From an uncultured bacterium (GTDB taxonomy: Bacteria > Bacillota > Clostridia > Lachnospirales > Lachnospiraceae), in assembly GCA_947381965.1 (NCBI GenBank), contig CANCXX010000020.1:18111-82110 (forward strand): a stretch of 64,000 bases of DNA, in the 5' to 3' direction. The position numbers and the translations under genes were made by a program. How positions within the stretch are numbered: position 1 is the stretch's first letter; every line of letters begins with the position of its first letter. The notes below the pieces were generated by a model. That model saw only the letters and a program-made list of their open reading frames with translations. It had not been told where the DNA came from and did no database searches. This document shows, piece by piece, positions 3,127 through 54,955 of this stretch.

Positions 3127-4225
3127 TTGAAGGTCAAATTATTAAACAGGGATATTCAACAGATTAAAAAGCATTTGGATGGGAAAAGACGGGTAATGAC
3201 ATATGGAGCCGGCGCTTGGTTTAATGACATAAAAAAGATGCTGCTCGAATATGGATATAAATTGGATTATGCTTTTATAGATGCACCGCACTGCAATGGA
3301 AATATATCTTCAAATGGATTGGGGGGGCACGGAGATTGTTTCAATTGATAAACTGGGCTCATTATATATGCCTGAAAGTGATGCGCTTATATGGGCAATT
3401 GGATCACCTGAAAAATTGCGAAACTGCATGAAGGACGATAGCCTGATAAAAGAATGCTTTTTAATCTGGGATATGGGGTTTTGGAAAGATAAGAATTATT
3501 TTTTTTCTCATAAAAAGGAATTTAAAGAAGTAAGTGGATTGCTTTGCGATGAATATTCCCAAAAAGTTTTTTGGGGGTATATAAAGGCCCAAAAAGGAAA
3601 TATTTGTGAGGATATTCTTTATAGTATAAATGGGACATATTTTAATGAACTAACTAAAGAAAAGAGAGCTGGAGCTTTTTTAGATTGTGGTGCATACAAA
3701 GGTGAGTCCGTAATTGATTATATGAGATTTTTCGGTGAAGAGTGTAAGATATATGCTTTTGAGCCAGACAGCTGTAATTATAAAGATTTGGCTCATAAAA
3801 TGAAAAATAGAACAAATATTATTTGCCTGAATAAAGGATGTTATTCATCGGAAAAAATTCTTTCTTTTGATTCTCAGGGAGATATGTCAAGTAGTTTACA
3901 GGAGAATGGAAAAGAGTGCGTTGAAGTAACAACGATTGAGAAGATTGTTGGTAATGAAAAAATTGCGTTTATAAAAATGGATATTGAAGGTGCAGAATTA
4001 GAGGCATTGAAGGGAGCGAGAAATGTTATTGAAAGGGATATGCCTGTTTTAGCAATCAGTGCATACCATCGACAAGAGGACCTTATTACATTATTACCCT
4101 ATATTAATAATTTTCGTAGTATAGATGAAACAGAAGAGTATAAATTATATTTAAGGCATCATGGTGTTGGATCAACAGAATTGGTCATTTATGCAATTCC
4201 CAGGAAAAAGGATGTTGGAATGTAG
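3127..4225 (+). pseudogene. FkbM-family methyltransferase, frame-shifted at a G7 tract (probably switchable)
   Basis: The gene begins with TTG at 3127, behind GGAGAGAAG, and encodes about 66 residues before a run of seven G (3321-3327). With seven G the frame stops at 3348. With six G it reads through ...GLGGTEIVSID into the long downstream frame ending at 4225, giving one protein of about 365 residues. The downstream part has the SAM-binding LDCGAYKGES and IYAFEPD motifs and the FIKMDIEGAE motif of FkbM O-methyltransferases. All parts needed are present, so this looks like an OFF-phase contingency gene, not a decayed one. A sequencing miscount in the tract is the main alternative. It lies between the ACP and ligase genes, so the methylated product is probably the same glycan decoration. 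Confidence 0.8.
3321..3327 (+). repeat. G7 homopolymer, candidate slippage site in the FkbM gene
   Basis: Seven consecutive G interrupt the FkbM reading frame about 65 codons from the start. Six G would restore a single frame across 3127-4225. It is one of seven runs of seven or more G in the window, all on the coding strand. Confidence 0.8.
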
Positions 4226-4260
4226 CCTGTGTAGATTGCTGCATGTTAGGAGCATACGGA

Positions 4261-5730
4261 ATGAAAAATATAAAGATGTGGGATTTATTAAAAAACAAGG
4301 ATAAAAGGTGCCTTCAGCAAGAGGACGGGGTGTTTTTAAGCTATGGACAGGTGGATGAATTTGGTGAGAGGCTTTTACATGTTTTGGAAGAAAGATGTCT
4401 TATATTTATATTATGCCGCAATTCTATAGGAGCAGTAGCGGGATATATTTCTTTTGTCAATCACAGAATAGTTCCGGTTTTGCTAAATGAACATATTGAA
4501 AAAAGAATGTTAGACAGCCTGTTGTCATTATATCGGCCGCTCTATCTTTGGGGGCCTGTAGAACGTGCAGATCAGATGCAGGGACAGATAGTTTTTGAGG
4601 AGTATGGTTATTGCCTGATAAAGATGGAGTATGGTATGTTGTATACTATACATGATGAATTGGGGCTGCTTCTTACTACTTCCGGTTCCACAGGTTCACC
4701 AAAATTTGTCCGGCAAAGTTATGAGAATATCCGCATAAATTCAGAACAGATAGCCGAGTATTTGGAATTGGATTCTTCAGAGAGGCCTATTACTACATTG
4801 CCAATGAATTATACATATGGCTTATCCATTATACATAGTCATTTGTTGGTTGGTGCGACCATTCTTTTGACGGATAAGAGGTTGCCACAGCGTGAATTTT
4901 GGAATTTTTTTAGAGAGGCAAAAGCAACTTCTTTCGGAGGAGTGCCCTATACCTATGAGATGCTGGAGCGGTTGCATTTCCGTACAATGGTTCTGCCATC
5001 TTTGCGTTGTATGACACAGGCAGGGGGGAAGCTTTCTCCAGAACTTCACAAGAAATTTGCCGAATATGCAATTGAGAACCATAAGAAATTTATCGTGATG
5101 TACGGACAATGTGAAGCCACGGCAAGGATGGCTTATCTTCCCGCAAAAGACTCATTAAGAAAATATGGTTCCATGGGAATTGCAATTCCGGGAGGTAAAT
5201 TTACACTGACAGGCATGGATGGAAAGGAAATTACAGAAACAGGAGTGACTGGAGAGTTGGTTTATACTGGACCGAATGTGACAATGGGATATGCACAGAC
5301 CCCGGAAGAATTGGCTTTGGGCGATGAAAGGAATGGGCGGCTGGAAACAGGAGATATGGCAAAGCAGGATGAAGAGGGGTATTATTATATTGTAGGGCGT
5401 AAAAGGCGCTTTTTAAAGGTGTATGGAAATAGAGTTAATTTGGATGAATTGGATGGAATTTTAAAGAGTCAATATGGTAATGTGGATTGTTCCTGTGCAG
5501 GTGTAGATGACCATGTATATATTTTTATCACAGAGGAAACAGAGCAGACAATATATGAACAGCAGGAGCAGCGGACGGATAAAAACGTAGCAGAGGTGAT
5601 AAGAAAATATATTGCAGAAAAGACAGGGATTCATTTTACAGCTTTTGAAGTACTGGTGATACCGGAAATCCCCAAAAACGATGCAGGCAAAATACAATAC
5701 AAGGAATTGGAAAAATATTATGGATTATAG
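4261..5730 (+). CDS. AMP-forming ligase (ANL superfamily)
   Basis: 489 residues of the adenylate-forming acyl/aminoacyl ligase family. Visible core motifs are TTSGSTGSPK (ATP-binding loop), YGQCEATARM, ETGDMAK, GRKRRFLKVYGNRVN and a C-terminal DAGKIQY holding the A10 lysine. ATG 4261 is preferred to ATG 4243 because AGGAG at 4248-4252 is eight bases upstream of it. The protein lacks a carrier domain and so probably charges the free-standing ACP at 2817, much as DltA charges DltC; this is inferred from context. The substrate, a fatty acid, hydroxy acid or amino acid, cannot be assigned. The next LuxE gene starts inside its last codons, so the two are translationally coupled. Confidence 0.85.
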   Translation: MKNIKMWDLLKNKDKRCLQQEDGVFLSYGQVDEFGERLLHVLEERCLIFILCRNSIGAVAGYISFVNHRIVPVLLNEHIEKRMLDSLLSLYRPLYLWGPVERADQMQGQIVFEEYGYCLIKMEYGMLYTIHDELGLLLTTSGSTGSPKFVRQSYENIRINSEQIAEYLELDSSERPITTLPMNYTYGLSIIHSHLLVGATILLTDKRLPQREFWNFFREAKATSFGGVPYTYEMLERLHFRTMVLPSLRCMTQAGGKLSPELHKKFAEYAIENHKKFIVMYGQCEATARMAYLPAKDSLRKYGSMGIAIPGGKFTLTGMDGKEITETGVTGELVYTGPNVTMGYAQTPEELALGDERNGRLETGDMAKQDEEGYYYIVGRKRRFLKVYGNRVNLDELDGILKSQYGNVDCSCAGVDDHVYIFITEETEQTIYEQQEQRTDKNVAEVIRKYIAEKTGIHFTAFEVLVIPEIPKNDAGKIQYKELEKYYGL

Positions 5731-6835
5731 GAACTACCTTCAGCTGAGGCCTTATAAACAGGAGAAAGAAGAAAAGAAAAAAATTTTATCCGAACGAATT
5801 AGAGAGCTGACTTGTCTGCATATGGAGAAATGTCCAGAGTATAAGAAAATGATGAGAGTATCAAATTTTGCAGAAGAAGGGGGAAATGAAGCTTTTGTCA
5901 AATTGATGTCTTATGAGGATATTCCCTTTTTGCCCGTTCGTTTATTTAAGGAAATGGAGTTGCGATCTGTTTCTCAAAATGAGATAGTAAAGATTATGAC
6001 AAGTTCAGGAACTACGGGACAGTCAGTGTCTAAAATATATTTGGACAGAGAAACGGCGGCAAATCAGCAGAAGGTGTTAGTAAAAATTGTTTCGGATTTT
6101 ACTGGGGGAAGCAGAATGCCGATGCTGATTATCGACTGCCCATCTGTAATAAAAGATCGCCATATGTTTTCAGCAAGGGGAGCAGGTATTCTTGGTTTCT
6201 CTGTTTTGGGCAGGGACAAGATATATGCACTTCGAGATGGAGATATGAGTCTGGATGTGGAAGCAGTCATGCAATTTTTGGAGAAACATCAAGAAGAAAA
6301 AATTCTTTTATTTGGTTTTACTTTTATGGTTTGGAAATATTTTTATATAGAACTGCAGAAGTGGAAAAAGAGGGGGCTCTGTTTTGATCTGTCGAAGGGG
6401 ATATTGATACATGGCGGTGGCTGGAAGAAGCTGCTTAATGAATCAGTTTCTTCTGTAGAATTTAAAGCAAAACTTAAAGAAATATGCGGAATTACACATG
6501 TACATGATTATTATGGCATGGCAGAACAGACGGGATGTATTTATATGGAGTGTGAATATGGTTGTCTGCACACCAGTGTTTTTTCAGATGTTATTGTCAG
6601 AAACCCTAAAGATTTTTCTGTCTGTGATATAGGTGAGAGCGGTATTATAGAGGTGGTATCGTCTATTCCGCAGTCTTATCCGGGACACTGCCTTTTAACA
6701 GAGGACATAGGTAGAATTTTAGGAGAGGATGATTGTCCTTGTGGCAGGAAAGGTAAATATTTTCGGATTGAGGGAAGATTAAAAAGCGCTGAGGTCAGGG
6801 GGTGTAGTGATACTTATGAAGTATTTGCTGGGTGA
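5720..6835 (+). CDS. LuxE-like acyl-protein synthetase (copy 2)
   Basis: 371 residues and a clear paralog of the protein at 520-1596. It has the same SSGTTGQ loop, LLFGFTFM, GGGWKK, YGMAEQTGC and DDCPCGRKG motifs. ATG 5720 was chosen because it lies inside the end of the ligase gene (stop 5728-5730) and the resulting N-terminus aligns with copy 1; the upstream ATG 5681 would add 13 residues unlike copy 1. Its 3' end overlaps the LuxC-like gene by 29 bases, as in the first pair. Keeping two diverged pairs suggests two different carboxylate substrates or two sequential reductions. Confidence 0.85.
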   Translation: MDYRNYLQLRPYKQEKEEKKKILSERIRELTCLHMEKCPEYKKMMRVSNFAEEGGNEAFVKLMSYEDIPFLPVRLFKEMELRSVSQNEIVKIMTSSGTTGQSVSKIYLDRETAANQQKVLVKIVSDFTGGSRMPMLIIDCPSVIKDRHMFSARGAGILGFSVLGRDKIYALRDGDMSLDVEAVMQFLEKHQEEKILLFGFTFMVWKYFYIELQKWKKRGLCFDLSKGILIHGGGWKKLLNESVSSVEFKAKLKEICGITHVHDYYGMAEQTGCIYMECEYGCLHTSVFSDVIVRNPKDFSVCDIGESGIIEVVSSIPQSYPGHCLLTEDIGRILGEDDCPCGRKGKYFRIEGRLKSAEVRGCSDTYEVFAG

Positions 6836-8024
6836 CGAAACTATTTTAAAAGATATGCCTCAAATTTCCCCCAAAGAACCTTTTGCATTGGAGGTTTTGG
6901 AGTTTTGTCAGGAGGTTTCTAAAGAACTTTTGCAAACGGGTCAGGGGAAAAAATACCCAGATATTGTGACCCTTGGATTTTGGTTAAGGAAGAGTTCATT
7001 AGAGATGCTAAAAAAACGATTTTTGATAGAGGATGGAGGTGTCCGGTTAGGGAGAGGTGTAATTTTTCATGTGGCACCTTCTAATGTTCCTGTTAATTTT
7101 GCATATTCTTTATTTTCAGGAATGATATGTGGAAATGCCAATATAGTCCGTGTTCCTTCCAGAGAGTTTAGGCAGGTATCTATTATTATAAAGGCACTTG
7201 GAAAAGCAGTAAACATGTACCCAACTATGGCGCCTTATATATGTTTGGTTAGATATGGACATGAGCAGGATATAAATGATATTTTATCTTCTATTTGTGA
7301 TGTGCGTGTTATATGGGGAGGAGATGTTACCATAGCCCAAATCAGAAAATCTCCGCTGCCTCCAAGAGCGACGGATGTGAGCTTTGCAGATCGTTTTTCG
7401 GTTGCTGTGATTGAGACGGGGGGTTATGCAAAATTGTGCAATAGGGAAAAGGGACAGCTTGCAAGAAATTTTTATAATGATACCTATCTCACAGATCAAA
7501 ATGCCTGCACCAGTCCTAAATTGGTTATATGGATAGATATGCCTGACAATGTTAATAGTAATAATATAAGGAAAGAATTTTGGTCAAAATTATGGGAAAT
7601 TGTTGAGAGGGAGTATGCGTTTCAAGATATCCAAGGAGTAAATAAATTAACGAAAAAGTATTTGTTGGCGGTAGAAGAAGGAGAAAATGTAAAGGTAAAT
7701 TATTGGGTGAAAGAAGCAGATAATCGGCTAATATGTGTGGAGATAGCAAAGCTAAAAGATAATATTTCACTTTATTTTGAAAATTCAGGGTATTTTTTAG
7801 AATATGTAACAAAGGATATATCAGATCTGATAGTACTTGGAAAGGAAAAACGATGCCAGACAGTTGGATATTTTGGAGATATAGAGAAAATACTTCCATT
7901 AATAAAAAAAGGGATAAAAGGGATAGACAGAGTGGTTCCGATTGGCAAAACAATGGATTTTGATTGGTTTTGGGATGGTTATAATTTATATGAAAGGTTT
8001 ACAAGAAAAGTAGTTGTTGTGTGA
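6807..8024 (+). CDS. LuxC-like acyl-CoA/acyl-protein reductase (copy 2)
   Basis: 405 residues, LuxC family, with the catalytic-cysteine motif DQNACTSP and IWGGDVTI. The GTG at 6807 follows CAGGGGGT (G-rich site at 6798-6802) and lies inside the 3' end of the LuxE-like gene. The same GTGATAC-TATG context occurs at the copy 1 junction because the LuxE C-terminus (RGCSDTY) is conserved. The protein appears intact. It ends the LuxE/LuxC/ACP/ligase module; about 45 bases later a decayed region begins. Confidence 0.85.
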   Translation: MILMKYLLGDETILKDMPQISPKEPFALEVLEFCQEVSKELLQTGQGKKYPDIVTLGFWLRKSSLEMLKKRFLIEDGGVRLGRGVIFHVAPSNVPVNFAYSLFSGMICGNANIVRVPSREFRQVSIIIKALGKAVNMYPTMAPYICLVRYGHEQDINDILSSICDVRVIWGGDVTIAQIRKSPLPPRATDVSFADRFSVAVIETGGYAKLCNREKGQLARNFYNDTYLTDQNACTSPKLVIWIDMPDNVNSNNIRKEFWSKLWEIVEREYAFQDIQGVNKLTKKYLLAVEEGENVKVNYWVKEADNRLICVEIAKLKDNISLYFENSGYFLEYVTKDISDLIVLGKEKRCQTVGYFGDIEKILPLIKKGIKGIDRVVPIGKTMDFDWFWDGYNLYERFTRKVVVV

Positions 8025-16851: not shown

Positions 16852-16865
16852 GGAGATGTAAAATT

Positions 16866-18228
16866 TTGAATTTGTTAAAAAAAGTAAAAAAATCTCGTTT
16901 TTTCATGTGGGTTATTTGCTTCATTTTATGCTTAGCAATAGAAGTTATTTTCAACGCTGAGGGGAAATTATATTATGATGCTCTTGATTATTGGAACAGA
17001 GGGGCATATTTATGGAAGGATGGTTCATTTTCCTTGATTATGGAGGGATTCCGAGGATATGTTTTTCCTGTATTTTTAGGAATTTGTATTCATTACTTAG
17101 GAGGAATGACTGGATGGAAAATACTAAATGCCGCAATGATAAGTACTCTATTTAGTATAATGATTCCATCTTTGCAGAATATAAAATATCAAAATGAGCG
17201 GGCAAAAGAGTATAAAGTGATAATTTGCTATTTATTGTTTACAAGTTTTTTTGTAGGGTTAGAAATATACCCATTATCTGATCTGCCTGCTATTTTTTTA
17301 TGCCTTACAGCTGCTTTTTCAATAAATCATGCTTTGAAAATAACTGGTATTAAAAGGGGATTATGGAGTTTTTTATTTGGTGTTACAATATACTGCTCAT
17401 ATAATGTAAGGACAATATATCAGTTTGCGTCAATTTACCTAGTATTTTATATTATTTACCAGTTATATAAACATCATGCCACAATTAAAAATTCATTAAT
17501 AACTTTAGTGGGGGGGGGTATTAGGAGTAATTACAGCAACGATTCCACAGATATATATGAATTATTATGAGCTTGGTAAATTTTCAATAAAAGTGCCAAC
17601 AAATGGTTTAATGAAACGACAACTTTTTTGGGGAATGCAAAATCAGGCATATGGGACTTATGTAGGTATAGAGCAAGAGATACCTCAAATGTATTTTGTG
17701 GATAAAGTTGGAATGAACATATTGCAGAAAGAAGGCATAACAGATAGTTTTGTGTCAATTGGTCAGTATTTAAAAGTATGTTTAAAATACCCAATAGAAA
17801 TGGTGGGGATTTATACCAGACATTTAATTAATATGCTATTACCAATCTGGCCGGAAGCTTATGTGGTTAATATGAACAGCAATAAAATAATAACATCACT
17901 TTTAGCCTTTTCATGCATTTTTCTTTTTATTATTTGTGTGTTTGGAAAATATACTTATAGAAATACGTATTGGAATTTTGTGCCAATTCTTATTCCTGTA
18001 GTTTTTATAACGCCTGGAGCGGTAGAAATTCGATTTTTTGCGGCACTATTTATTTACATTATAAGCACACTTTGCTGGAACTGCGACTGGAAAAGCATGT
18101 TTTCCATGATAGCCCGAAATAAGATAAAATTTATTTTAAGCTATATAGGTATATATGCTTCCTTTATTGCCATTTGGACCAATACGTTATCTAGTATATC
18201 AACAGGGTACCCGATATTTTTTGAATAA
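16866..18228 (+). pseudogene. GT-C-like membrane protein, frame-shifted at a G9 tract (probably switchable)
   Basis: Two frames form one gene. The first runs from TTG 16866 (GGGAG ten bases upstream; ATG 16839 is an alternative inside the previous gene) to 17570. The second runs on to 18228. They meet at a run of nine G (17510-17518): with nine G the frame leaves the alignment, while with eight G it reads LVGGVLGVITATIPQ and continues into the second frame. The joined protein is about 450 residues with roughly ten helices, DALDYWNRG in the first loop and IYTRHLINMLLPIWP later. The relic at 9095-9650 matches its C-terminal half. No other lesion is seen, so an OFF-phase contingency gene is the best explanation. 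Confidence 0.75.
17510..17518 (+). repeat. G9 homopolymer, candidate slippage site in the GT-C gene
   Basis: Nine consecutive G preceded by GT and followed by TATT. Eight G would give one continuous frame; ten G would give a stop directly after the tract. Confidence 0.8.
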
Positions 18229-19406: not shown

Positions 19407-20411
19407 ATGAAAGAAAAAGGTGAAAAAATACTATGGATTGATTGCTTAAAGGCGATAGCAATTTTAGCTGTCCTTCTGGATCACACCTTTATGGTGTTGT
19501 ATGACAATCCGAATGTACAAACGGCAACGTTTTTTCGGTAAGCCTTTTTATATTAGTTATGGGAATAACAACATGGATTTCAGAAGAAGGTCATTCTAAA
19601 GAAGAAAATGGTGCAAAAATCAAAAGAAAAATAAAGAAAATAATTATTCCTTATATTGTGGCAACATTTATGTATACCGTGGTTCAGGACAGATATTTTA
19701 ATTTTGAATTGTTTATAAACAGAGTGATTTTATTTAATGCGTCCAGCCCATTGTATTATGTTGCTCTTTATATTCAATTAATTTTTATAAATGTTTTTCT
19801 GTATACTATTATAAAAAAATGCAATCAATGCAGATATTCCTATTTATATAAAATGATTATTTTTATATTACTATTATTTGGCGCATCGTTGTCCATAAAT
19901 TATTCTAATATATTAAGTATTTATGGTGGTGGTGGAAAACTATTTGGTGGCACATACGTTGTATTATCTTACCTGGGAATGATTATGGCCCCATGGCTGC
20001 TTGCAGAAAAGAGTAATTTATTTTAGTAAAGCTGTCAGGTGCATCATTTTTTTTCCGGGATTTTATGGTTGAGATTTATATGGAAAAATCAATTTCATAT
20101 CGAAAAATATTTTCCCTTGGGGGGGTATTAACCCGCCTGGAGTAACCTTGTTTGTCTTTGCTATTTTAATGTTGTTGTTTTTATACAGCTTTTTTGTCTG
20201 TTAAGCAAAGGGGACAATAAGTATGGGTTAAAATTTGTTAAGTATTAGGAAGCATAGGAGAGAACAGTTTATATATTTTTTTGTATCATAGATTTATCCT
20301 GGATTATTTTCTGAAAGTTTATGTACATGCTAATAACATATGGACTAAACGTTTAATATTTTTATTGTGCATGATAGGGATTCCTATAGCAGGGAAAAAA
20401 TATATATGTTA
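19407..20411 (+). pseudogene. Acyltransferase-3 family membrane protein, decayed
   Basis: Starting at ATG 19407 the frame reads ILWIDCLKAIAILAVLLDH, the typical N-terminus of membrane O-acyltransferases. It is broken at a T6 run (19530-19535), resumes with MGITTWISEEG, and stops at 20026. Further pieces follow in several frames: IEKYFPLGG, NPPGVTLFVFAIL after a G7 run, and LGSIGENSLYIFLYHRF. At least five frameshifts or stops are needed to rebuild the protein, so it is a true pseudogene, not a single phase switch. From 20412 to 20557 nothing is recognised apart from the GAAGGAGAA site of the next gene. Confidence 0.75.
20119..20125 (+). repeat. G7 homopolymer in the acyltransferase relic
   Basis: Seven G followed by TATT. 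Six G would join FPLGG to INPPGVTLF, so the tract may once have been a switch like the others. The gene has other lesions, so it cannot restore function now. Confidence 0.6.
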
Positions 20412-26649: not shown

Positions 26650-28349
26650 GGAAGAAATTAGGCCTGATAAGTATACTTATTTTTATGACAATAATATGGG
26701 GGGGGTATGAAGTCAGAGAAAGCAGGACTACACAGTTTACGGCAGAGGATAATGAACTTTCTCTTGTGTTAAAAATAGGTAATCAGCAGAAAGAAATCTT
26801 TCCATGGCACGAAAAAAACGAACAGATATATTATTTCTTTTTACCTTCCTGTGTGTTGGAAGATAAAATTTATTTTGACCAGATTTCTGACGAAGATATT
26901 TCAATTGATGAAAAAAAAATATCAAAATATAACTGCTTTTCATTTGAACAGGGGAAGATATATAAGTTGAGTGTAAACGGCTTGTTATATCAGGCAGTCT
27001 TTATGAGAGGAAAAAATATTCCAACTTTTTTTGTAGAAACCAAAAGCGGCAATATGAAATATATTCATTCAGATAAAGGAAATATGGAAACAGGAAATAT
27101 CACTGTCGTAGATGCAAGCCGGCATATACAATATAGTGGAAAGCTTGATGAAATATCCGGAAGAGGCAATAGTACATGGCTGCCCTTTAAGAAGTCATAT
27201 TCCATTAAATTGCCGGAAAAACATCCAATTTGCGGACTAAACTCCGGGAGTAAATGGAAGTTACTCTCTTTATATTTTGAACATGATAAAATGCACAGCA
27301 AAATAATATTTGATATGTCTGCATTGGCAGGTCTAAATTATACTCCGGAATGCACATGGATAAATTTATACTGTAATGGTTCATATCAGGGGTTATATTT
27401 GCTTGCAGAATCTGTGGATGCCCATTTAGAAGAAGATGGCTGTCTTTTAGAAAAGGGAATACCATCCCAATTACAGGAAGATGAGGTTTTCTTTATAACA
27501 AAGAAAATGGAATATTTGTTTAAAATGAAGCAGAAGGCTGGGGAAAATGTCGAGGAGATTGCAGGTTTTATACAGGAAGTGGAAAATCTGCTGTCAGAGG
27601 GAAATTCACAATTTAAAGAGTATTTAGACATAGATTCTATTGCCAGCCAGTTTTTGATTGACAAAATTGTAATGGAAGCTGATGCAATGATGATGAGTAC
27701 ATTTTTTTATATCAGAAATGGTGTAATTTATGCCGGTCCTATGTGGGACTATGACAGGGCCGTTGGGGAAATTCTGCCGGATTATGAGATGCCGGTTGAA
27801 GGGGCGCCAAATGGGATGTCGGGATGGTATATGGTACTATATAATGATATGGATTTTTATGAGTCAATGATTAATACATACAAAAAGCTGCTGCCTTATT
27901 TTGAAGAGTTGTTAAATGGGGGAATAGATTATTATGCAGAGTGGATTGAATCATCTGTGGAAATGGACAATATATTGATGAAAAAGTGTTCCACACCCAA
28001 TGAAACAAGCAGTTATACTGCATATGAAAGTTATGTGAAATACCTAAAGTATTTTTTGGCAAACAGACTCAATTTCTTAAATAAAATATGGGAGATAGAT
28101 GGATATGAGTTTAAAGCACCAGCAGAGGAAGGGAAATATCACCAGGTTGCTCTTGCCAAAGAAGATGGAAGTATTATTGAAACCAGGAGCATTATGGACG
28201 GAGAATGCCTTACCGGGCTGCCGGAATCAGATAAAAATTTTGACGGATGGTACTTTAGTGGAAGAAAAGGATGTATTGATAAAATATATAACGATAAGAT
28301 TCCAATATATGAAGATTTAGTTTTGTATGCAAAGCGGCAAAATCAGTGA
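26646..28349 (+). CDS. CotH-family protein with C-terminal InlB-type repeat; G8 tract in signal peptide
   Basis: 567 residues. An N-terminal hydrophobic segment (residues 5-19) acts as signal peptide or anchor. The CotH domain follows: EISGRGNSTWL, KKSYSIKLP, LLSLYFEHDKMHSKI, YQGLYLLAESV and, later, GPMWDYDRA, matching the kinase-like core of CotH. The last 80 residues, with FDGWYF and EDLVLYAK, look like a Listeria-Bacteroides (InlB B) repeat, which suggests a cell-surface location. ATG 26646 overlaps the pyruvyl transferase stop. A run of eight G lies at codons 18-20 (26698-26705); the frame is open with eight. Seven or nine G would stop translation within a few codons to a few tens of codons. 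It forms a trio with the next two genes. Confidence 0.85.
   Translation: MRKKLGLISILIFMTIIWGGYEVRESRTTQFTAEDNELSLVLKIGNQQKEIFPWHEKNEQIYYFFLPSCVLEDKIYFDQISDEDISIDEKKISKYNCFSFEQGKIYKLSVNGLLYQAVFMRGKNIPTFFVETKSGNMKYIHSDKGNMETGNITVVDASRHIQYSGKLDEISGRGNSTWLPFKKSYSIKLPEKHPICGLNSGSKWKLLSLYFEHDKMHSKIIFDMSALAGLNYTPECTWINLYCNGSYQGLYLLAESVDAHLEEDGCLLEKGIPSQLQEDEVFFITKKMEYLFKMKQKAGENVEEIAGFIQEVENLLSEGNSQFKEYLDIDSIASQFLIDKIVMEADAMMMSTFFYIRNGVIYAGPMWDYDRAVGEILPDYEMPVEGAPNGMSGWYMVLYNDMDFYESMINTYKKLLPYFEELLNGGIDYYAEWIESSVEMDNILMKKCSTPNETSSYTAYESYVKYLKYFLANRLNFLNKIWEIDGYEFKAPAEEGKYHQVALAKEDGSIIETRSIMDGECLTGLPESDKNFDGWYFSGRKGCIDKIYNDKIPIYEDLVLYAKRQNQ
26698..26705 (+). repeat. G8 homopolymer in the CotH signal peptide, frame ON
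   Basis: Eight G encode part of Trp-Gly-Gly. Nine G would put a TGA one codon after the tract; seven G would open a frame that ends after roughly 20-25 codons. A one-base slip therefore turns the gene off. Confidence 0.8.
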
Positions 28350-28404: not shown

Positions 28405-29088
28405 TTGTATCGGGTTGAAGACAAATATCAATGCAGCGAAGGTGAAATGCGTCTGCTTCAAATGCGCCTGGAATCGCTTCTGCGGCCAGATGATTTTCAG
28501 ACCAATATTAATGGTTATAAGGTTACGAGCGTATATTTTGATGATGTAAATGATTCTTTTTTGAGAGATACGGTGGATGGAATCCGGTTAAGAGAAAAAT
28601 ACCGGATCAGGATATACGATAACTCTTTTGAAACAATAAAACTGGAAGTAAAATATAAAAGAGATAACCGTGTTCTGAAAAAATCCAGAAATATTTCAAA
28701 GGTACAGATGCAGAGTCTCATGAACGGAGCGTGTATAGAAGATAAAGATAACTCTTTAGACAGCCCTGTTACGCTTTTTAATCTGGGAATAAAAACACAT
28801 GGACTTAGACCCAGGGTAATCGTGGAATATGACAGAAAAGCATATGTATATGATGCGGGAAATGTACGTATTACATTGGACCGGGATATTCGGGCAGGAA
28901 ACCAGTTAGAAGCTTTTATTTGTGGAGGAACAGTGCAGTATAATTATATAGACGAAATAAGCAGGGTACTGGAAGTGAAATATGATGAATTCCTTCCAGG
29001 ATTTATTGCAGGCGTTTTGGAAAGTGGTAATATGAAGCAGATTTCGTGTTCAAAATACAGGTTGTGCAGGGAAAGGAAAGGTTTATAG
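28405..29088 (+). CDS. VTC-domain (polyphosphate polymerase-like) protein
   Basis: 227 residues with the basic tunnel-domain pattern of VTC proteins: RVEDKYQCS at the start, VTSVYFDD, RLREKYRIRIY, IKLEVKYKR and, later, RPRVIVEYDRKAY and LEVKYDEFLPG. The start is TTG 28405, eight bases after GGAGG; TTG 28378 is an alternative. Bacterial VTC proteins of this type commonly neighbour CotH and DUF4956 genes, as here. A role in extracellular phosphate or polyphosphate-linked modification of surface polymers has been proposed from the VTC fold, but the substrate is not proven. Confidence 0.85.
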   Translation: MYRVEDKYQCSEGEMRLLQMRLESLLRPDDFQTNINGYKVTSVYFDDVNDSFLRDTVDGIRLREKYRIRIYDNSFETIKLEVKYKRDNRVLKKSRNISKVQMQSLMNGACIEDKDNSLDSPVTLFNLGIKTHGLRPRVIVEYDRKAYVYDAGNVRITLDRDIRAGNQLEAFICGGTVQYNYIDEISRVLEVKYDEFLPGFIAGVLESGNMKQISCSKYRLCRERKGL

Positions 29089-29090
29089 TA

Positions 29091-29771
29091 ATGTCAGTAA
29101 AAGATGTAATTAAAAGTAGCGTGTATAATAGCCTTGGGGGGGGTACTAACCTTACAGCAAAGGGAATTTTATTTATTTTAGCAGCAGCATGTCTGATTGG
29201 GCTTTATGTCTATGCCGTTTATAAACTTACCAGCAAGTCGGCTTTTTATTCAAAAGATCTTAATGTTACCATAGCAGGGCTGCCTGTCATTATAGCGGCG
29301 ATTATGGTAGCCATGCAGTCAAATCTGCTGGTATCTCTTGGAATGGTTGGCGCATTGTCAATTGTGCGTTTTCGCAGTGCAATAAAAAATCCGCTGGATT
29401 TATTGTATCTTTTCTGGTCTATAAGCGCAGGAATCATCTGTGGCGTTGGACTTACAATGCTGGCAATTATTTTGTGCATAATTATGACAGTTATGCTGTT
29501 GATTTTAGAGATGATACCCAATTCAAAAGCGCCATTGCTTCTAATAATCAGAACCGGATATGAAAATGCTAACTGGGAGGAAATTGTAAAAACAATAAGG
29601 AAGCATTCAAAATATATGAAAGAAAAGTCCCGGAATATTAGAAATGAAGAGACAGAAGCTATATTTGAAATAAATACAAGAATGCAGAATGCGCTTTTAC
29701 AGGATTTAAAACAGAATACTCAAATTAAGCAGATTAACTTATTGTCCCATGATGGTGAATATCGGATATAA
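29091..29771 (+). CDS. DUF4956 membrane protein; G8 tract near start
   Basis: 226 residues with about four hydrophobic helices (residues 24-44, 60-80, 96-116, 118-140) and a soluble C-terminal domain. The NLLVSLGMVGALSIVRFR stretch between helices is characteristic of DUF4956. It starts two bases after the VTC gene stop. A run of eight G (29136-29143) lies at codons 16-18 in SLGGGTN; the frame is ON with eight. Nine G would give TAC TAA, and seven G a stop after about 14 codons. Having switches in both CotH and DUF4956 suggests that the whole trio is phase variable. The 222 bases that follow (29772-29994) hold no gene I can support. Confidence 0.82.
   Translation: MSVKDVIKSSVYNSLGGGTNLTAKGILFILAAACLIGLYVYAVYKLTSKSAFYSKDLNVTIAGLPVIIAAIMVAMQSNLLVSLGMVGALSIVRFRSAIKNPLDLLYLFWSISAGIICGVGLTMLAIILCIIMTVMLLILEMIPNSKAPLLLIIRTGYENANWEEIVKTIRKHSKYMKEKSRNIRNEETEAIFEINTRMQNALLQDLKQNTQIKQINLLSHDGEYRI
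29136..29143 (+). repeat. G8 homopolymer in DUF4956, frame ON
   Basis: Eight G within the 16th to 18th codons, flanked as CTT-G8-TACT. Both alternative frames reach a stop soon after, so slippage gives an early truncation. Confidence 0.8.
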
Positions 29772-31740: not shown

Positions 31741-31808
31741 AAGAAACTTCCAAACAATCTATTGGTGCAGTATCACAAGCAAAGCTTGCGATATGCAGGG
31801 GTATAAGT

Positions 31809-41806: not shown

Positions 41807-42379
41807 ATGAAACTACGAAGACTAAAGGAAAAAGATGCAACTGGTATGCTGGAATGGATGCACGACCCTGAATTTCAAAAAAATTTTCAGATTGATATGA
41901 TAAATAGAAGAATGGAAGATATAATAGAATTTATTAATCAATCACAGACTGATAGGATAGAGGGACAAAGTATACATTATGCAATTGTTGACGAAGAAGA
42001 TGAGTATTTGGGGACGATAAGCTTAAAGGATATAGATTTATTGGCACGTAAGGCAGAATATGCAATCAGCCTTAGGAAAATGGCGCAGGGAAAAGGAATA
42101 GCAACAGAGGCCACAAGGGAATTACTAAGAATTGCCTTTGATAAATTAGGTTTGGAAAGAGTATATTTGAATGTGCTGTCAGAAAACATAAATGCGATTC
42201 GTCTGTATGAGAAGTGTGGATTTGTATATGAAGGAGCATTTCGGAATCATTTATTTTTGAAGGGAGAGTATAGAACATTGAAATGGTATAGTATTTTAAA
42301 AAATGAGTATATGATGCAATTTGGGGGGGGGTATAAATCTAATTTATACAAAGACACTTCCAATAGTATCATATTATAA
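41807..42379 (+). CDS. GNAT-family N-acetyltransferase with G9 tract in its tail
   Basis: 190 residues, RimJ/RimL-type GNAT. The acetyl-CoA motif A is visible in AISLRKMAQGKGIATEATR, followed by NVLSENINAIRLYEKCGF (motif B). It may acylate an amino sugar, like PseH in nonulosonate pathways, or a protein. After the catalytic core a run of nine G (42323-42331) sits in the last 25 codons. With nine G the tail is GGGYKSNLYKDTSNSIIL; with ten G it ends two codons later; with eight G it continues to a different end directly before the next start codon. Slippage would therefore change only the C-terminus or the coupling to the next gene. Confidence 0.8.
   Translation: MKLRRLKEKDATGMLEWMHDPEFQKNFQIDMINRRMEDIIEFINQSQTDRIEGQSIHYAIVDEEDEYLGTISLKDIDLLARKAEYAISLRKMAQGKGIATEATRELLRIAFDKLGLERVYLNVLSENINAIRLYEKCGFVYEGAFRNHLFLKGEYRTLKWYSILKNEYMMQFGGGYKSNLYKDTSNSIIL
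42323..42331 (+). repeat. G9 homopolymer in the GNAT tail
   Basis: Nine G preceded by ATTT and followed by TATAAA. The three possible frames give tails of different length. The eight-G frame ends with TAG at 42406-42408, immediately before the ATG of the hexapeptide-MaoC gene. Confidence 0.75.
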
Positions 42380-48600: not shown

Positions 48601-51600
48601 CAGATCATGAGCCTGTGATTTGTACAAAGTATCATTGTGCAGGCAGGGAATTTTACTATGATGAACAGGGAAACAAAACCAGGACATGTATTCTCGGAAC
48701 AGACGGTCGTTTGATGGTGCGGGAGGATTTGGGATATGCCCAGATTTATTCAGAATATGACAGTTATGGTAATGAAGTGAAAACATTTTATCAGGATGTG
48801 GACGGAAAACCGGCGGTATGGACAGAAGGCGGTTATTCTTATTGTGAGAATGATTATGAGGGGATGAGTAAGACCGCATCAAGGTATTATGATATGTATC
48901 ATAACCTTGCAGTGAGAAAAGATAAGGGATATGCGGAAATAAAATTTCAGAATGATGAAAGGGGGCAGTGCCTTTGTGAACGGTATTATGGAGTAAATGG
49001 GGAACCTGTGATTCATAAAGAAGTCCGGTGTGCAGGCATGACATTTGAACGGGATGAAAGCGGTAACGTAATTGAAAATAAATACATAGGGACAGATGTG
49101 CCGGTAATGACCCGAAACGATCAGGGATATGCGCGGATTCATGTGGAAATTGATGATCTGGGAAATACACTGTGGGCATACCAGTCAGATGAAAAGGGTC
49201 AGCCAGCAGCATCGGCAGAGTATGGTTATGCTTCCTATGAGAGTATATATGCTAACGGAAAATGGGTAAAAGGAATTTATTATAATACACAGAAGGAGTG
49301 GGTGGAAAGGAAGGATACCGGATATGCGGCCATAGAACTTGCGTATGACGATAAAGGTAAATGTACAGGCAAAAAATATTATGGAGCAGATGGCAAACCT
49401 GTTATCAGTACGAAGCATCACTGTGCAGGTATTGAGTATGGATATGATAAAAATGGGAACAGAACAGATATACGCTATATTGGAGTGGATGGTTTTCCGG
49501 TTAGCAGGGGGGATCTGGGATATGCAAGGATACATAAAGAATATGATGATTTTGGGAATCTGGTGAAAGAGTCTTACTTTGGCGTGGACGGTCGGCCAGT
49601 GGTATATAAAAAGGGAGACTATTCTTCAATTGAAAATATTTATGTAAATGGAAAATGCACAAGAACAAGTTATTATGATCTGCAGGGAAATTTGATTATA
49701 AATAAGGAATTAGGATATGCTGCTGTAAAATATCAGTATGATGCGTATGGACAGTGCACATCAGAGATGTATTACGGAACAGACGACCAGCCTGTTGTCA
49801 GTTTCAAATATTTCTGTGCCGGATCTAAATATGGATATGATGGGGCAGGAAACAGAGATGAAATAAGCTATATCGGCATTGATGGAAAAAAGATGGTGCG
49901 CAGTGACTTGGGTTATGCGCAGGTAAAAATAAAGTATGATGATTTTGGGAATACGCTGGAAGAAAATTATTTTGATGCACAGGGCAGTCCTGATGTATGG
50001 GAGAAGGGAGGTTATTCTTCTTTTAAAAGAAAATACGCAGGAGAAAGATGTGAAGAGATTACCTATTATGACAGGCAGGGAAATTTGGTAGTGGCGAAGA
50101 ACACAGGGTATGCCAGAGCTCAGTATCTGTATGATATTTTTGGACAGTGTATTGAGGAACAGTATTACGGAGAAGGTGAGGGAGAGAACCCTAAGCGGGC
50201 TGTCAGTACGGAATACCATTGTACCGGTTTTAAATATAAGTATGATGAGAGAGGAAACAAGACACATATACAATATGAGGGACTTGAGGGTGAAGTATAT
50301 GAAAGAGAAGATATTGGTTATGCCCAAGAGGTCAGGACATTTGACGGCTTTGATAATATAACGGAAGTTGCATTTTTTGATGCGGATGGAAATCCGGCAG
50401 TGTGGAAAGGGGGCGGCTGTAATCTGCGCAGGATGGTATATGATAAAGGGAAATGTGTGGAGGAAAGCGTCTACTCCATCATAGATGGGGAACCGGAAGG
50501 GACGGTACGCAGGGACACCGGATATATAACCGTGCGTTATCAGTACGACCCCTATGGCCAGTGTATTTCGGAAAAGTATTATGGAGCGGATGGGTGGCCT
50601 GTTGTAAACCCCAAAAGTCATTGTGCAGGTATTGAGTATATGTATGACCTTGTTGGAAATAAAGTCAGGACATGTTATATTGATGCAGAAGGTCAGCCGA
50701 TTGTGAGAAAGGATCTGGGATATGCGCAAATACAAAGTGAATATGATGATCTGGGGAATGAAATAAGGGTGGTATATCTGGACGAGAAGGGAGAACCGGC
50801 CATATGGAAGGAGGGAGGTTATGCTTCCTGCAGAAATATTTATCAGAACGGTATTTGTGTGGAATCGGATTATTATGGTTTGGATGGAGAACTGACAGTA
50901 AGAGAAGATACCGGATATGCAGTTATAAAGTATCAATACAATGAATACAGGCAAAAAACCGCCGAATTATATTATGGAACGGAAAATGAACCTGTGATCA
51001 GCAAGACGAAGTACTGTGCAGGAATAGAGTATGATACCGACGGGAGAGGAAACACGATTATGAACCGGTATATTGGAACAGATGGAAGGCCTATGGTCAG
51101 GGAAGATCTTGGATATGCGGAGGTTCGTTCTGAGTTTAACAGTATCGGCGATGCGATACGGACAGAATATCTGGACGCTGACGGCCAGCTGACAGAGCTG
51201 GCAGGTAAAGGATATGCTTTTTTGGAAAACAGATATGAGGAGGGAAAGTGCGTAGAGACAAGATATTTTGACAGCATGGGAAATTTAAGGGAGAGAGAGG
51301 ATACTGGATATGCGGTAATAAAATATACCTTTGATGAACGCGGGCAACGTGTTTCTGAAATGTATTATGGTGCGGACGGCGGGCTGACTATGAATAAGGA
51401 ATCTTATTGTGCCGGTAAAATATATACATTTGATAAAACCGGGAACAGGACCGATCTTTATTATAAAGGTATAGATGATTCACTTATTTGCCGGAGCGAC
51501 TATGGATTTGCACATATAGAGACGAGGTACGATGCTTTTGGAAATGAAATAAATTTGAGCTATTTAGATGAAGAAGGGAAACCGGCGGAATGGCTTAAAG

Positions 51601-51869
51601 GAGGTATTGCAAGTATTGAAAAAAAATATGACAAAGGAAACTGCATAGAAACAAGCTATTATGACAAAAGTGGAAATCTGGCGCCAAGGACGGATACAGG
51701 GTATGCGATTATACGATATCAGTATGATGCCTTTGGACAATGTATTTCCGAATTGTATTATGGAACGGAAAATAATCCGGTAGCCTGTACAATTTACAAC
51801 AATGCCGGATACACGTATGAATATGATGAGCTGGGCAATAAGATAAGAACACAGACTGTGAAGCTTTAA
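45624..51869 (+). CDS. Giant membrane-anchored repeat protein (2081 residues), YD/RHS-like repeats
   Basis: 2081 residues. Residues 30-125 hold three hydrophobic segments (PDFVAMLVVIAIR, YYCALFSAVVLGAFLLLQV, AFLFFLIPFGAGLLIFVI). Then a unique domain to about residue 480 and degenerate repeats to about 839. From residue 840 to the end are ten copies of a 131-residue unit, the last partial. Each unit contains four ~33-residue sub-repeats of the form GYA...YD..G....E.YYG.DG.PV, then an AG..Y.YD..GN unit, then two more. The YD-containing, Gly-rich pattern resembles YD/RHS repeats. No C-terminal toxin domain or RHS core signature is seen. ATG 45624 follows AGGGG. Location and function are unknown; a surface fibre or ligand-binding protein is a guess. 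Confidence 0.8.
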   Translation: MKEWIKQKLHNLISKAKGAIDRGKKDVTTNIISTLPDFVAMLVVIAIRPAIAGYQGTEFLYYCALFSAVVLGAFLLLQVICGIGYGRIERLWKRLRLDVCKVRSLQKKAFLFFLIPFGAGLLIFVICSKYCKTECYVSVAEVFGLPEGVGEPLKENEAELLAGYWKIKNYPFAHKMTLTYETNYSQMDLIQQHSTLYNMMFFKPPVRVEYSYGKDRDNDKYRAYGQEYYLNMYDRHFKIPLEISYYSSSDKLLLQMERNDNGQFDIIAYSREDMPQLLNSTLFQLPKGETMERTTVSGIEVTYHSDGFPQSRRLIPHIYNQYGVNGEKYVYDENGKLTGLYYLDANGAPVCNKLGVMMTAFQYRENGNLQSIRYYGDEKGEKKTEGFHGVFCERFIYDDDGNLTERRQLDRDENWCYDDNEVYTYRYFYEAGALKGEEYLGFSGERIWVDNFRCQAAGFLEKKTAKGNVVEISFDSVGENGGNGVSFRLPYSQARTTGADRSGWDSGQQAITVSTLFAGTGSGTEERNGGREKKDRTDFGRNYAYIQYTLDGENRVFKETYLDRKRNLVINEKGYAIKSLEYDAQKRIKEEKFFNETGSPCLINEGYARIRKKYYQNGNIKSIEYLDEKECCTMNRELGYAYIGYSYADENGFESITESYYNMDKKPFRLFDYGYAAKRRVYDESGRLIREAYLDESGRPVCRTDYKVAEINYAYADDGNRIREWYKDAQGQQANRLDKGYAAIYWKYKDGLMVEKSYQGLRNHIMRAVHDKETGVSATKYAYINGKKQEERYFDGNGNPVMRQDTGCVMQRYEYNDAGQLSARYSYDVNDELILRKDTGFAIIRFQYDDHGRELSQMYYGEDGRPVISTKYHCAGFAYGYDESGNRADIQYVNPDGRLMVRSDLGYARTHRVFDGFGNITEEYFYDTDGSPAVWEEGGYSSAKSLYVNGEWMRSSYYDQQGNPVIRRDTGYAVIENEYDGYGQRSKEIYFGTDHEPVICTKYHCAGREFYYDEQGNKTRTCILGTDGRLMVREDLGYAQIYSEYDSYGNEVKTFYQDVDGKPAVWTEGGYSYCENDYEGMSKTASRYYDMYHNLAVRKDKGYAEIKFQNDERGQCLCERYYGVNGEPVIHKEVRCAGMTFERDESGNVIENKYIGTDVPVMTRNDQGYARIHVEIDDLGNTLWAYQSDEKGQPAASAEYGYASYESIYANGKWVKGIYYNTQKEWVERKDTGYAAIELAYDDKGKCTGKKYYGADGKPVISTKHHCAGIEYGYDKNGNRTDIRYIGVDGFPVSRGDLGYARIHKEYDDFGNLVKESYFGVDGRPVVYKKGDYSSIENIYVNGKCTRTSYYDLQGNLIINKELGYAAVKYQYDAYGQCTSEMYYGTDDQPVVSFKYFCAGSKYGYDGAGNRDEISYIGIDGKKMVRSDLGYAQVKIKYDDFGNTLEENYFDAQGSPDVWEKGGYSSFKRKYAGERCEEITYYDRQGNLVVAKNTGYARAQYLYDIFGQCIEEQYYGEGEGENPKRAVSTEYHCTGFKYKYDERGNKTHIQYEGLEGEVYEREDIGYAQEVRTFDGFDNITEVAFFDADGNPAVWKGGGCNLRRMVYDKGKCVEESVYSIIDGEPEGTVRRDTGYITVRYQYDPYGQCISEKYYGADGWPVVNPKSHCAGIEYMYDLVGNKVRTCYIDAEGQPIVRKDLGYAQIQSEYDDLGNEIRVVYLDEKGEPAIWKEGGYASCRNIYQNGICVESDYYGLDGELTVREDTGYAVIKYQYNEYRQKTAELYYGTENEPVISKTKYCAGIEYDTDGRGNTIMNRYIGTDGRPMVREDLGYAEVRSEFNSIGDAIRTEYLDADGQLTELAGKGYAFLENRYEEGKCVETRYFDSMGNLREREDTGYAVIKYTFDERGQRVSEMYYGADGGLTMNKESYCAGKIYTFDKTGNRTDLYYKGIDDSLICRSDYGFAHIETRYDAFGNEINLSYLDEEGKPAEWLKGGIASIEKKYDKGNCIETSYYDKSGNLAPRTDTGYAIIRYQYDAFGQCISELYYGTENNPVACTIYNNAGYTYEYDELGNKIRTQTVKL
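48141..51869 (+). repeat. Ten units of a 393-bp in-frame repeat
   Basis: The GYA-type unit start recurs at 48141, 48534, 48927, 49320, 49713, 50106, 50520, 50913, 51306 and 51699. Eight of nine intervals are exactly 393 bases (131 codons). The sixth is 414 because of two small in-frame insertions. The last unit is partial (171 bases including the stop). Units differ at many positions, so the period is kept by length constraint more than by sequence identity. Confidence 0.9.
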
Positions 51870-51873
51870 ATGC

Positions 51874-52171: not shown

Positions 52172-52353
52172 CTCCTTTGCAACAGAAAAACAAAATAGAA
52201 AAAAAGGGCGGACTTATGACACTTTGGAATATTGGAGCATATTCAAAGTATATCAGATTACAGCCATATTTATCCACGTTATTTCAAAGTTTTTTATGGG
52301 AAGAGGAAAATTTATGTTGAACTTTTGGGCGGAATAAGTATAGGGGAACAGGT

Positions 52354-54955
52354 ATGGAATTTTTAAATGAAAAAAGACTTTTCCGGAACGGAAAACCTGT
52401 TGAAATACAGGATATTTTTTTAGAACGGAAAATATGTTTTCTGGAAAAACAAATGGAGGACCTGAAGCTTAAATGCGTAAATCTAATCCATTGTCATAGC
52501 GGTCATCCAATAGATAATTATGACTTAACCCTGGATGAGTCAAAAGCGCTTTGCCTTGAAATATGGAATAAAAGCTGGAGTGAACATACCCAGATTTTAA
52601 ACATTTTTAAAGCAAAGGCCAGCCTCTTTTTAGGGGCTGTATATGTGTGTGCGCATGATTATGATGTGGCACTGGAGTATTTAAGCGCTGCCAGGGATTT
52701 GATGGAAAAGGAAACAGTTTTGTATATAATACCGGAGTTCTATGTTGCTGTCTGCATTGAGATGTCAAAGTGTTATATAGATAAGCACAGTCCGGTTAAA
52801 ATGGCAATAGCCTGTCTCTCAAAGGCGGAAAAGGTGCTGGAAAGTAACAAAACAGATATTTATGAAAATTATAAAGACTTTTATTATTATAAACTGTCAA
52901 TGGAATTAAAGCTGCAGCAGGCTTTTTCCGTTATGGATGAGTATTCCGGGGATGGCAGGGGAGAGAACGCGGGTCAGGCGTTAAATTTGCTAAAGGAGGC
53001 GGAAATATTGCTTACACAGATGGACTTTGGGAGCAATTTACCAGCCTCGTTTTTGGATGAAGAATGGAAGGAGAAGCAAAATATAACAATTTATACCACC
53101 AGAGGGGAATGCTTTAAAAATTTGTACTTCCAATTGAAGAAAAAAATAAATCTTCTGGGCAAAGGGGCAGATGGTAAAGAAATAATAAAGGAACTATGGC
53201 AGGTATCAAAAGTCCTTTGGGAAGAAGCGCAGGAGGGTGGCTATGAGGAAGCTAAGCCGCGGTATATTATAACATTGTCAGAGCTTGAATCTCTGCGAGG
53301 GCAGCTTTATAAATTTATGGAAGAAAAAGATTATAACGAAGAGACGGGAAGAGAGATAGAGATAAATGGGGCGTGGAAACTTTGTCAGTATTGTCTTGAA
53401 ATTGGTGTTTCTATTTTTTCCAGGGTGATTTCAGAGCATAAGGATAACACGAAATGTCTAAATGATATAGCTGCTCTTTTTTATGATTATTATAGATGCG
53501 GGGCTGGGGGGGGAGAGGCACAAAAAAGAGAATGGAAATGAAACCAGGATATTGCATTATCTGATAGAAAAGTATTGTCGGGCATATAATAGGAGCACTG
53601 TTCCGGAGACAATAGAAGCGATTATTGATGAGGTGCTTAGAGTCGAGAGGACCAATATATTTGCGCTCAATATTAAGTCGGCGTTGTCGGAAAAGATGAA
53701 AATTCCGGGAAGAATGGGAGATTATCCGGCTTTGCGGCAGTCTTCCTTAAAAAGGTGGCTGATTAGAATGGATGGTAAATGCCCAAGGGATTCAAAATCG
53801 CTGGATGTATTTGTGGAGATAGAGATGTGTCTGATTACACTTTACAGCCAGGTATTCAGGTTTATGGATTCTGCAGTTATAAACTGTAATTCTGAGGAAT
53901 GGAAAAATTTAGCGGTTGGTCACTATACAAAAATGAAGGTTCTTCCCAAATTAATAAATAAGGAGGCCGACGCAAGGCTGCGGATACGGAATGTTCATCA
54001 TTTAAATGATACCAAGGAAGGGGTATTGCTGATTAACCGTGTTAAAAGAGAACTTTTACCTGACGAAAATAATAATTTATTGCTGGAAGAACTATGGAAT
54101 TTGTATGATTCGGACAGTGCCGGTGCGGTGAGAAGTTCTGTTTATATGGGGAGTTTTACAGGCAGGCTGGACCAGCTGAATATGTGGGAGCGGTATGGGG
54201 ATGGAGGAAAGGGGGTTTCCATTCAATTTAATGCCAAAGAGTATTTTGACCCGGAGGCGAAGGTTTCCCTTTCACAGATATCAACCAGTGGAAGCAGCGG
54301 ATGTTATAAAATTGAAAATATTAAGTATCCTTTGTATATGGTAATTTATTTGCCGGATCAGGAGGACGCAGAGCTGAAAAGTGTGGCAGATTATGCCGGA
54401 GCACGTGCATATGCGGCCGAAAAACGGATAAGTGGGCAGGATAATGAAAAAGTAAAAAATAAGGAAAAGACAGAGAAAACCTACACCAGTCTTGAAGCAA
54501 AATGGTGGGACAGGCAGAAACGTCTAATAGAAAAGCTTGATGTTTTGGAAGAAGATATAGCCATATCTCTTAAGAACATTCAGCATTATTTTTTACAACT
54601 GGATGAGCAGACCCAGAGCAGGCTGAAAAGGGAGCTTTGTAATACCATAATGGTGATTTTGGATCTGGTGCGGTTTTTGGTCAAAAATGACTATTACAGG
54701 GATGAAAGGGAATACCGGGTAATTCAATATTCAGCGGACCCGGAGTGCGAAACGGAAGGAACGACTGTTCCCAAACTGTTTATACCCATTGAAAAGGAGC
54801 TGGTTTATGAGAAGGTATGTTTTGGACCTCTTGTAACAGATTTTGAGTCCAAGGCCGCCTATATTTTGAATATCAAAAAAAGAAATGATGAAAAATCAAT
54901 GGATAACTGGGAAATAGAGGTACAAAAATCTTCCATACGATATAAAAAGGAGTAG
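52354..54955 (+). pseudogene. TPR-like and DUF2971 two-domain protein, frame-shifted at G8 (probably switchable)
   Basis: The first frame (52354-53541, 395 codons) is helical with TPR-like pairs (FKAKASLFLGAVYVCAHDYD, FYVAVCIEMSKCYID). The second (53483-54955) carries a DUF2971 domain: VYMGSFTGRLDQLNMWERYGD and KGVSIQF, and late YYRDEREYRVIQY. They meet at eight G (53506-53513). With seven G the first frame runs directly into the second (CGAGGERHKKENGNE), giving one protein of about 865 residues; with eight it ends after about 12 codons. Both parts are otherwise undamaged. ATG 52354 follows AGGGGAAC. DUF2971 function is poorly known; the TPR part may bind a partner or ligand. Its promoter region resembles that of the giant repeat gene. 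Confidence 0.75.
53506..53513 (+). repeat. G8 homopolymer at the TPR/DUF2971 junction
   Basis: Eight G between GCT and AGAGGCA. Seven G joins the two domains in one frame; the present eight ends the protein before DUF2971. Confidence 0.8.

Follow-up and report, generated by a model that had tools for sequence, protein, structure and literature searches.

Lachnospiraceae are abundant gut bacteria, and the subject of this study is a set of long guanine tracts in the genome of an uncultured member of the family. The window, i.e., the whole stretch of 64,000 nucleotides that was analyzed, comprises bases 18111 to 82110 of an 82,110-base contig (C20) from a draft assembly of 4,307,164 bases in 92 contigs. 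It contains seven runs of 7, 9, 7, 8, 8, 9, and 8 G, starting at positions 3321, 17510, 20119, 26698, 29136, 42323, and 53506, respectively, all on the plus strand. A first-pass annotation of this DNA had listed the same runs and had taken them for a poly-G phase-variation system; it had also pointed to the absence of equally long C runs from the plus strand, where the longest one we found has 6 bases (at 31246).

Three of the tracts separate two parts of a putative gene that lie in different frames, in the direction that the annotation had given. The G7 run at 3321..3327, followed by CAC, lies between the parts of a gene for an FkbM-type methyltransferase (~3127-3348 and 3281-4225, the Pfam Methyltransf_21 match falling inside the latter), and the G9 run at 17510..17518, followed by TAT, lies between 16839-17570 and 17557-18228; either pair would be OFF if it is one gene. 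The third, a G8 run at 53506..53513 followed by AGA, marks the border of two overlapping open reading frames (ORFs), 52354-53541 and 53483-54955 (DUF2971). The labels GT-C and TPR that had been given to the genes at 17510 and 53506 found no backing in Pfam, which had no match for either half of the former or for the first half of the latter. Judged by eye, the gene at 17510 is hydrophobic, as a membrane gene would be; it is preceded by a DUF6056 gene (15391-16851). The frame is open through the tract in the two genes that had been described as ON. These are the CotH-domain gene 26616-28349, with G8 and then TAT at 26698..26705, 82 nt past its start, and the DUF4956 gene 29046-29771, which adjoins a VTC-domain gene and has G8 and then TAC at 29136..29143, 90 nt past its start. 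No relatives of the CotH gene were found in a search of genome contigs. The last two tracts are a G9 run followed by TAT (42323..42331), close to the 3' end of the GNAT acetyltransferase gene 41807-42379, and a G7 run followed by TAT (20119..20125) in the remnant of an Acyl_transf_3 gene, which is open at 19559-20026 and carries additional stops and frame changes; the statement that all tracts lie inside genes has to be amended for 20119, where the gene is not intact. Hence, five of the seven tracts, all except 20119 and 42323, sit where a one-base change alters the frame of a gene. An Rfam scan of the window matched no family.

The number of tracts was then compared with chance. The window contains 24.3% G and 13.9% C, and the null models were Markov simulations of order 1 to 3, plus order 3 to 4 on masked sequence. 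Seven runs of at least 7 G were seen versus null means of 2.7 to 6.7, five of at least 8 versus 0.6 to 2.0, and two of at least 9 versus 0.17 to 0.59, which makes the earlier estimate of 0.35 expected runs of at least 8 too low for a sequence so skewed toward G. A genome-wide count, which had been proposed as a check, gave 41 runs of G7, 8 of G8, 14 of G9, and 3 of G10, so that the number climbs again at length 9. The base following the run differed between the length classes, being A for 33 of the 41 G7 runs versus none of the 17 runs of 9 or more (Fisher P = 5e-9). Eight of the 25 tracts of G8 to G10 in the 4.3-Mb genome lie on C20 (binomial P = 1.4e-8), including three that precede the window (L001 positions 10793, 15628, and 15994). 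Several tracts at one glycan locus, as on C20, were also found in relatives, where tract clusters occur among L037-L056. One member of the genus has three tracts of G9 followed by TA (G9TA) within ~1.1 kb (L049 positions 5373, 5608, and 6480).

The effect of run length on the reading frame was surveyed at 137 loci (2.15 Mb) from this genome and its relatives. ORFs were in frame across 3170 of 3555 G4, 738 of 829 G5, and 122 of 139 G6 runs (shares of 0.88 to 0.89); for longer runs, the numbers were 8 of 11 (G7), 10 of 14 (G8), 16 of 30 (G9), 1 of 12 (G10), and 1 of 6 (G11). When longer ORFs were required, the frame was kept across 5 of 5 G7 runs, 0.78 of 9 G8 runs, 0.62 of 16 G9 runs, and 1 of 7 runs of G10 or G11. 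Under the same requirement, A runs kept the frame (A7, 0.88 of 318; A8, 0.94 of 62; A9, 7 of 7; range of 0.88 to 1.00 up to A10, with 2 runs), and so did T runs (T7, 0.93 of 200; T8, 0.97 of 35; range of 0.92 to 0.97 up to T8). C runs were scarce and mostly the same tracts seen from the opposite strand (C9, 3 of 6 in frame). Among the homopolymers compared, loss of frame was specific to long G runs. Of the 62 gene-borne tracts, 28 kept the frame and 34 broke it, while the share in frame was near one third (18 of 47) for coding tracts followed by TA.

Many of the genes that carry or adjoin the tracts match glycan enzymes in Pfam. In the window, the neighbors form a glycan island with Pfam matches to a DegT aminotransferase, SIS, UDP-GlcNAc 2-epimerase, NeuB, GtrII, a polysaccharide pyruvyl transferase, one GT2, and hexapeptide transferases. 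At least 6 of the 17 tracts of G9 or longer in this genome lie in or directly before genes with Pfam matches to glycan enzymes. The tract genes outside the window encode, according to Pfam, GT2 (L004 and L005), GT4 (L012), a hexapeptide transferase (L006), an epimerase and a TylF-type methyltransferase (both in L007), and an SDR protein (L001 position 15628). At L005 the tract separates Glft2_N from GT2, and at L001 position 15994 it separates a B12-binding from a radical SAM domain, the frames differing in both; we take these domain pairs to be ones that commonly occur together. As to other genes of the window, NeuB and UDP-GlcNAc 2-epimerase genes lie at 30703-32951, in the same island as the tract-bearing GNAT gene, and suggest that a nonulosonic (sialic-acid-like) sugar is made. 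In the stretch from 520 to 8024, the FkbM tract gene sits among genes for a LuxC-like reductase, an AMP-dependent ligase, and two LuxE-like acyl-protein synthetases. The 2081-aa ORF at 45624-51869, called a repeat gene in the annotation, is part of the island and has no Pfam family.

We then turned to the relatives. The host MutS protein is 86% and 85% identical to those of Parablautia muri and Parablautia intestinalis, respectively (the best of 80 named loci reached 89%), and the genus-level group of the host appears to include both species. Loss of mismatch repair through MutS was rejected as the cause of the tracts, since a MutS_I match lies in a 919-aa open frame. Tract patterns in other genomes were counted against a reversed-pattern control. 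G8 followed by TA (G8TA) gave 6 matches versus 2 for the control in P. muri, 7 versus 2 in P. intestinalis, 9 versus 0 in Eisenbergiella tayi, and 5 versus 0 in CE91-St56, a genome titled complete. A difference in tract length was seen between near-identical alleles of an Acyl_transf_3 gene, which is in frame with G11 in L163 and out of frame with G9 in L181; the two loci come from different genera, and their flanks are identical at 289 of 300 and 205 of 212 positions (96 to 97%). Of 397 genomes searched, 2 matched this allele over its full length and 4 matched it more weakly. The G9 tract of L008 in this genome, where the frames differ, and the G8 tract of L044 in another species of the genus are equally placed in a gene of an unknown family (43% identity over 132 aa); L044 is open from an ATG by reading, whereas the automatic caller scored both as lying in different frames. 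A GNAT counterpart in another genus (G146, 59% identity) has G10 followed by TAAATA in the same place as the G9 of the window. In L175, two genes with tracts at 10042 (G9) and 8808 (G8) share a 13-residue stretch upstream of the tract that resembles, by eye, a lipoprotein signal ending in a lipobox cysteine. An intergenic stretch with a G tract recurs in different genera at L184 position 5182 and L215 position 10036, in both cases 3' of what looks by eye like a terminator hairpin, and the G tract has similar surroundings; L141 and L138 contain stretches that resemble it. Rfam matched nothing at a tract in L138, L141, L184, L215, or L001, the six matches there being five tRNAs (L184) and one Clostridiales-1 RNA (L138).

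The long tracts also share a flank, namely, TA directly on the 3' side. Within 400 kb of this genome, sampled regardless of tracts, TA followed 6.7, 6.5, 6.1, and 9.4% of G3, G4, G5, and G6 runs, respectively, while it followed 10 of the 17 tracts of G9 or longer (P = 2e-8), 2 of the 8 G8 tracts, as well as five of the seven in the window. The effect requires a long tract, G7 runs being mostly followed by A, as described above. Summed over 37 genomes of the genus, G8TA was found 114 times versus 21 for the reversed pattern. In the family, TA followed 75 of the 150 tracts of G9 or longer among the matches listed (38 genomes), which had been chosen without regard to the 3' sequence except that two positions had to be non-G. 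G9TA was present in 125 of 298 family genomes and 87 of 393 class genomes; it was abundant in a few (16 in G221 and 15 in G679, with no control matches in either), absent from most, and equaled by the control in some. In four instances, G9TA lay within 100 bases of a contig start (G334:C31:40, G334:C81:58, G200:C1:76, and G105:C49:5), and the tracts may therefore break short-read assemblies and be undercounted.

The TA flank is not tied to a reading frame. The first base after the tract occupied the three codon positions in 16, 13, and 18 of the 47 coding TA tracts, and this about equal use of the phases led us to reject a codon or amino acid preference as the source of TA. An immediate stop codon was likewise rejected: TAA or TAG arises in 31 of the 75 TA cases, which is no excess. 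The start of a -10 box would suit some intergenic tracts, yet coding tracts carry TA too. TA tracts were indeed found between genes, some of them in a promoter-like spacer. At L054 position 6390, in the same genus, a G9 tract lies between TTGACA and TAAAAT with a spacer of 18 nt; G9-G10 TA tracts with a -35-like hexamer on one side and a -10-like one on the other were noted in L054, L189, L190, L172, and L176, and by eye in L224, and such tracts are possible promoter-spacer switches. TTGAC occurred within 30 nt upstream of 6 of 23 intergenic-like versus 2 of 46 coding TA tracts, and weaker -35/-10 pairs accompanied 11 of 23 and 10 of 46, respectively. None of the seven window tracts had TTGAC within 30 nt upstream; weak pairs (scores of 8, 8, and 9 of 12) surround 17510, 20119, and 26698, at a level similar to that in the 10 of 46 coding tracts.

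Taken together, the excess and clustering of the tracts, the genes that carry them, the loss of frame peculiar to long G runs, and the one difference in allele length are best explained by poly-G contingency loci of phase variation, and we consider this reading very probable. Replication slippage would add or remove G in runs of 8 to 10 and put the 3' portion of the gene, be it a surface-glycan gene or another, into frame or out of it, and the population would thereby hold a mixture of variants; the change would be reversible and may alter the cell surface. A miscount of long G runs in sequencing or assembly, with the broken frames being artifacts and no switching taking place, is very improbable in our judgment. 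Such a miscount would be in keeping with a draft assembly of 7.3% contamination, with the trouble at G tracts that the accessible text of PMC9187656 reports for Illumina sequencing, and with G10 and G11 having the worst in-frame shares. An error common to homopolymers would, however, also hit A and T runs, yet A runs up to 9-10 and T runs up to 8 keep the frame, although this control leaves an error peculiar to G untouched; miscounting also leaves the clustering on one contig, the glycan genes, the 3' TA, and the rise at G9 unexplained, and like tracts occur in named strains and in the genome titled complete. That the whole set arose by chance in a genome skewed toward G, with genes decaying in the usual way, is very unlikely. 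The third-order Markov model expects as many as 6.1 runs of at least 7 and 1.6 of at least 8 in the window, 20119 lies in a decayed gene, and the G7 runs of the genome resemble short runs in the base that follows. Against this, G9 tracts outnumber G8 tracts, nearly a third of the tracts (8 of 25) share one contig, the flank changes between G7 and G9, and homologous tracts are equally placed in different species. Chance is therefore disfavored for G9 and longer, but 20119 and part of the G7-G8 runs probably did arise in that way.

Two other accounts bring in the TA flank. By the first, one allele would give two products through transcriptional slippage or programmed ribosomal frameshifting where a G run is followed by UA; the fixed 3' dinucleotide could be the recoding signal, and two genes are split between domains that belong together. 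A recoding site should nevertheless have a fixed phase, which the 47 coding TA tracts do not, and TA tracts also lie outside genes, some in promoter spacers, so that recoding seems extremely unlikely. The other account bears on TA only and has primase start on the lagging-strand template, with an RNA primer over the tract and primer replacement promoting slippage. According to the part of PMC5204125 available, other Firmicutes primases start at CTA or TTA. In our own counts, the GC skew of the G strand was positive for 89 of 95 G9+TA tracts. Yet the start trinucleotides given in that paper open with two pyrimidines, while the tract offers GTA, and the primase of Clostridioides difficile is said in the same text to prefer CCC; 13 of 14 tracts of G9 or longer without TA are on the positive-skew strand as well, the sense tract of L170 is on the negative-skew strand, and strand bias cannot be separated from gene direction. 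We give this account hardly any credence. Slippage at contingency loci remains our preferred explanation of the tracts, and we read TA as a cis feature that may favor their birth, slippage, or retention. It is conceivable, though we hold it to be doubtful, that TA 3' on the G strand is a frame-independent cis signal in Lachnospiraceae and other Clostridia, alike for coding and promoter tracts, which is perhaps recognized directly or through the replication machinery and makes or keeps the tracts hypermutable; the tracts would then belong to a dedicated genome-wide mutability system rather than being accidental repeats under selection. TA is perhaps not peculiar to Clostridia, since in our reading of the accessible Table 1 of PMC7173850 the base after G is T in 6 of 10 poly-G/C rows of Campylobacter jejuni variable tracts and A in 4, with TAT in both rows where further bases are readable. 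Flanks had no effect on PCR slippage in the accessible part of PMC4965091, and this makes it less likely that TA acts on polymerase slippage by physical means alone.

Several observations weigh against phase variation or narrow its reach. Taken by itself, the window exceeds a third-order Markov null by a modest margin, the genome-level evidence being stronger, and both G7 runs (3321 and 20119) fall in a length class that looks like ordinary runs. At present, 20119 is no working switch, and a length change at 42323 affects only the C-terminal tail of the GNAT protein; hence, the annotation's proposal of phase variation gained support beyond the window and lost these two tracts as poor switches within it. 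In the genome, 8 of the 25 tracts (L002, L003, L009, L010, L011, L013, L015, and L016) have by reading no switch-like position and seem unrelated to switching, for example those in addB (AddB, L002) and a symporter gene (L011). Tract genes without a Pfam match or a clear role include 17510, the first half of 53506, the DUF2971, DUF4956, and radical SAM genes, and L008. Frame loss is clear only from G9 up and in small numbers, the automatic frame caller is wrong for about 1 in 10 ordinary genes, and the loci of relatives were picked around tracts, many through the G8TA or G9TA pattern, so that their counts come from a nonrandom sample. The length difference between near-identical alleles is one pair from other genera of the family, and 25 of 26 other homologous GNAT loci have no tract. 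An excess with TA was absent from Acetivibrio ethanolgignens (4 versus 4 for the control), Mordavella massiliensis (1 versus 1), and Herbinix hemicellulosilytica (0 versus 1). The draft itself has a completeness of 96.7 and the contamination mentioned above, and switching, mixed lengths, and reversibility are inferred from assembled sequence in which this species is represented by one genome.

If the tracts are contingency loci, many species would present varying surface glycans inside a single host, with consequences for phage resistance, IgA recognition, and strain typing. Part of the genes labeled "broken" in draft assemblies would then be OFF alleles. The TA flank would offer a concrete way of asking if a repeat owes its mutability to the sequence around it. 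Phase-variable colonies of Gardnerella are the subject of a paper (PMC11287997) that is said to mention homopolymers often. The Neisseria porA gene reportedly has poly-G in its promoter spacer, and the G9 in the 18-nt promoter spacer of L054, from the same genus as the host, is like it, unlike the seven window tracts, none of which follows a TTGAC. Among the matches listed in open-licence literature, none described phase variation by poly-G tracts or slippage for Lachnospiraceae, Clostridia, or Firmicutes, and the available portion of a review of gut surface polysaccharides (PMC12413058) does not mention slippage.

Slippage at homopolymeric tracts is described, in the part of PMC2831843 at hand, as a reversible gene inactivation with inlA of Listeria as a Gram-positive example; that system differs in using poly-A and poly-T near the 5' ends of genes, while A and T runs here keep the frame. 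Among the nearest known systems is that of C. jejuni NCTC 11168, for which the accessible text of PMC4965091 gives 29 poly-G/poly-C contingency loci. Their tracts are similar in length and lie mostly in ORFs for surface structures, and some are at the 3' end of a gene, in pseudogenes, or intergenic, much of which has its likeness here; the length-variant tracts in the accessible Table 1 of PMC7173850 include TGGGGGGGGTAT and TGGGGGGGGGTAT. C. jejuni belongs to another phylum, has another envelope, and had its length variation measured, while ours is inferred. The annotation knew of no clear description from a Gram-positive commensal, but G-tract slippage in pilus genes of Bifidobacterium breve is such a precedent (PMC9187656, accessible text), and Mycoplasma agalactiae is credited with another G-tract switch in the introduction of that paper. 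B. breve, too, is a Gram-positive gut commensal in which slippage at an intragenic G tract joins or separates two ORFs. It differs in its phylum and in having two sortase-pilus loci, one of them mainly G11 and G12, whereas the genome described here carries a repertoire of G8-G10 tracts, many of them in glycan genes.

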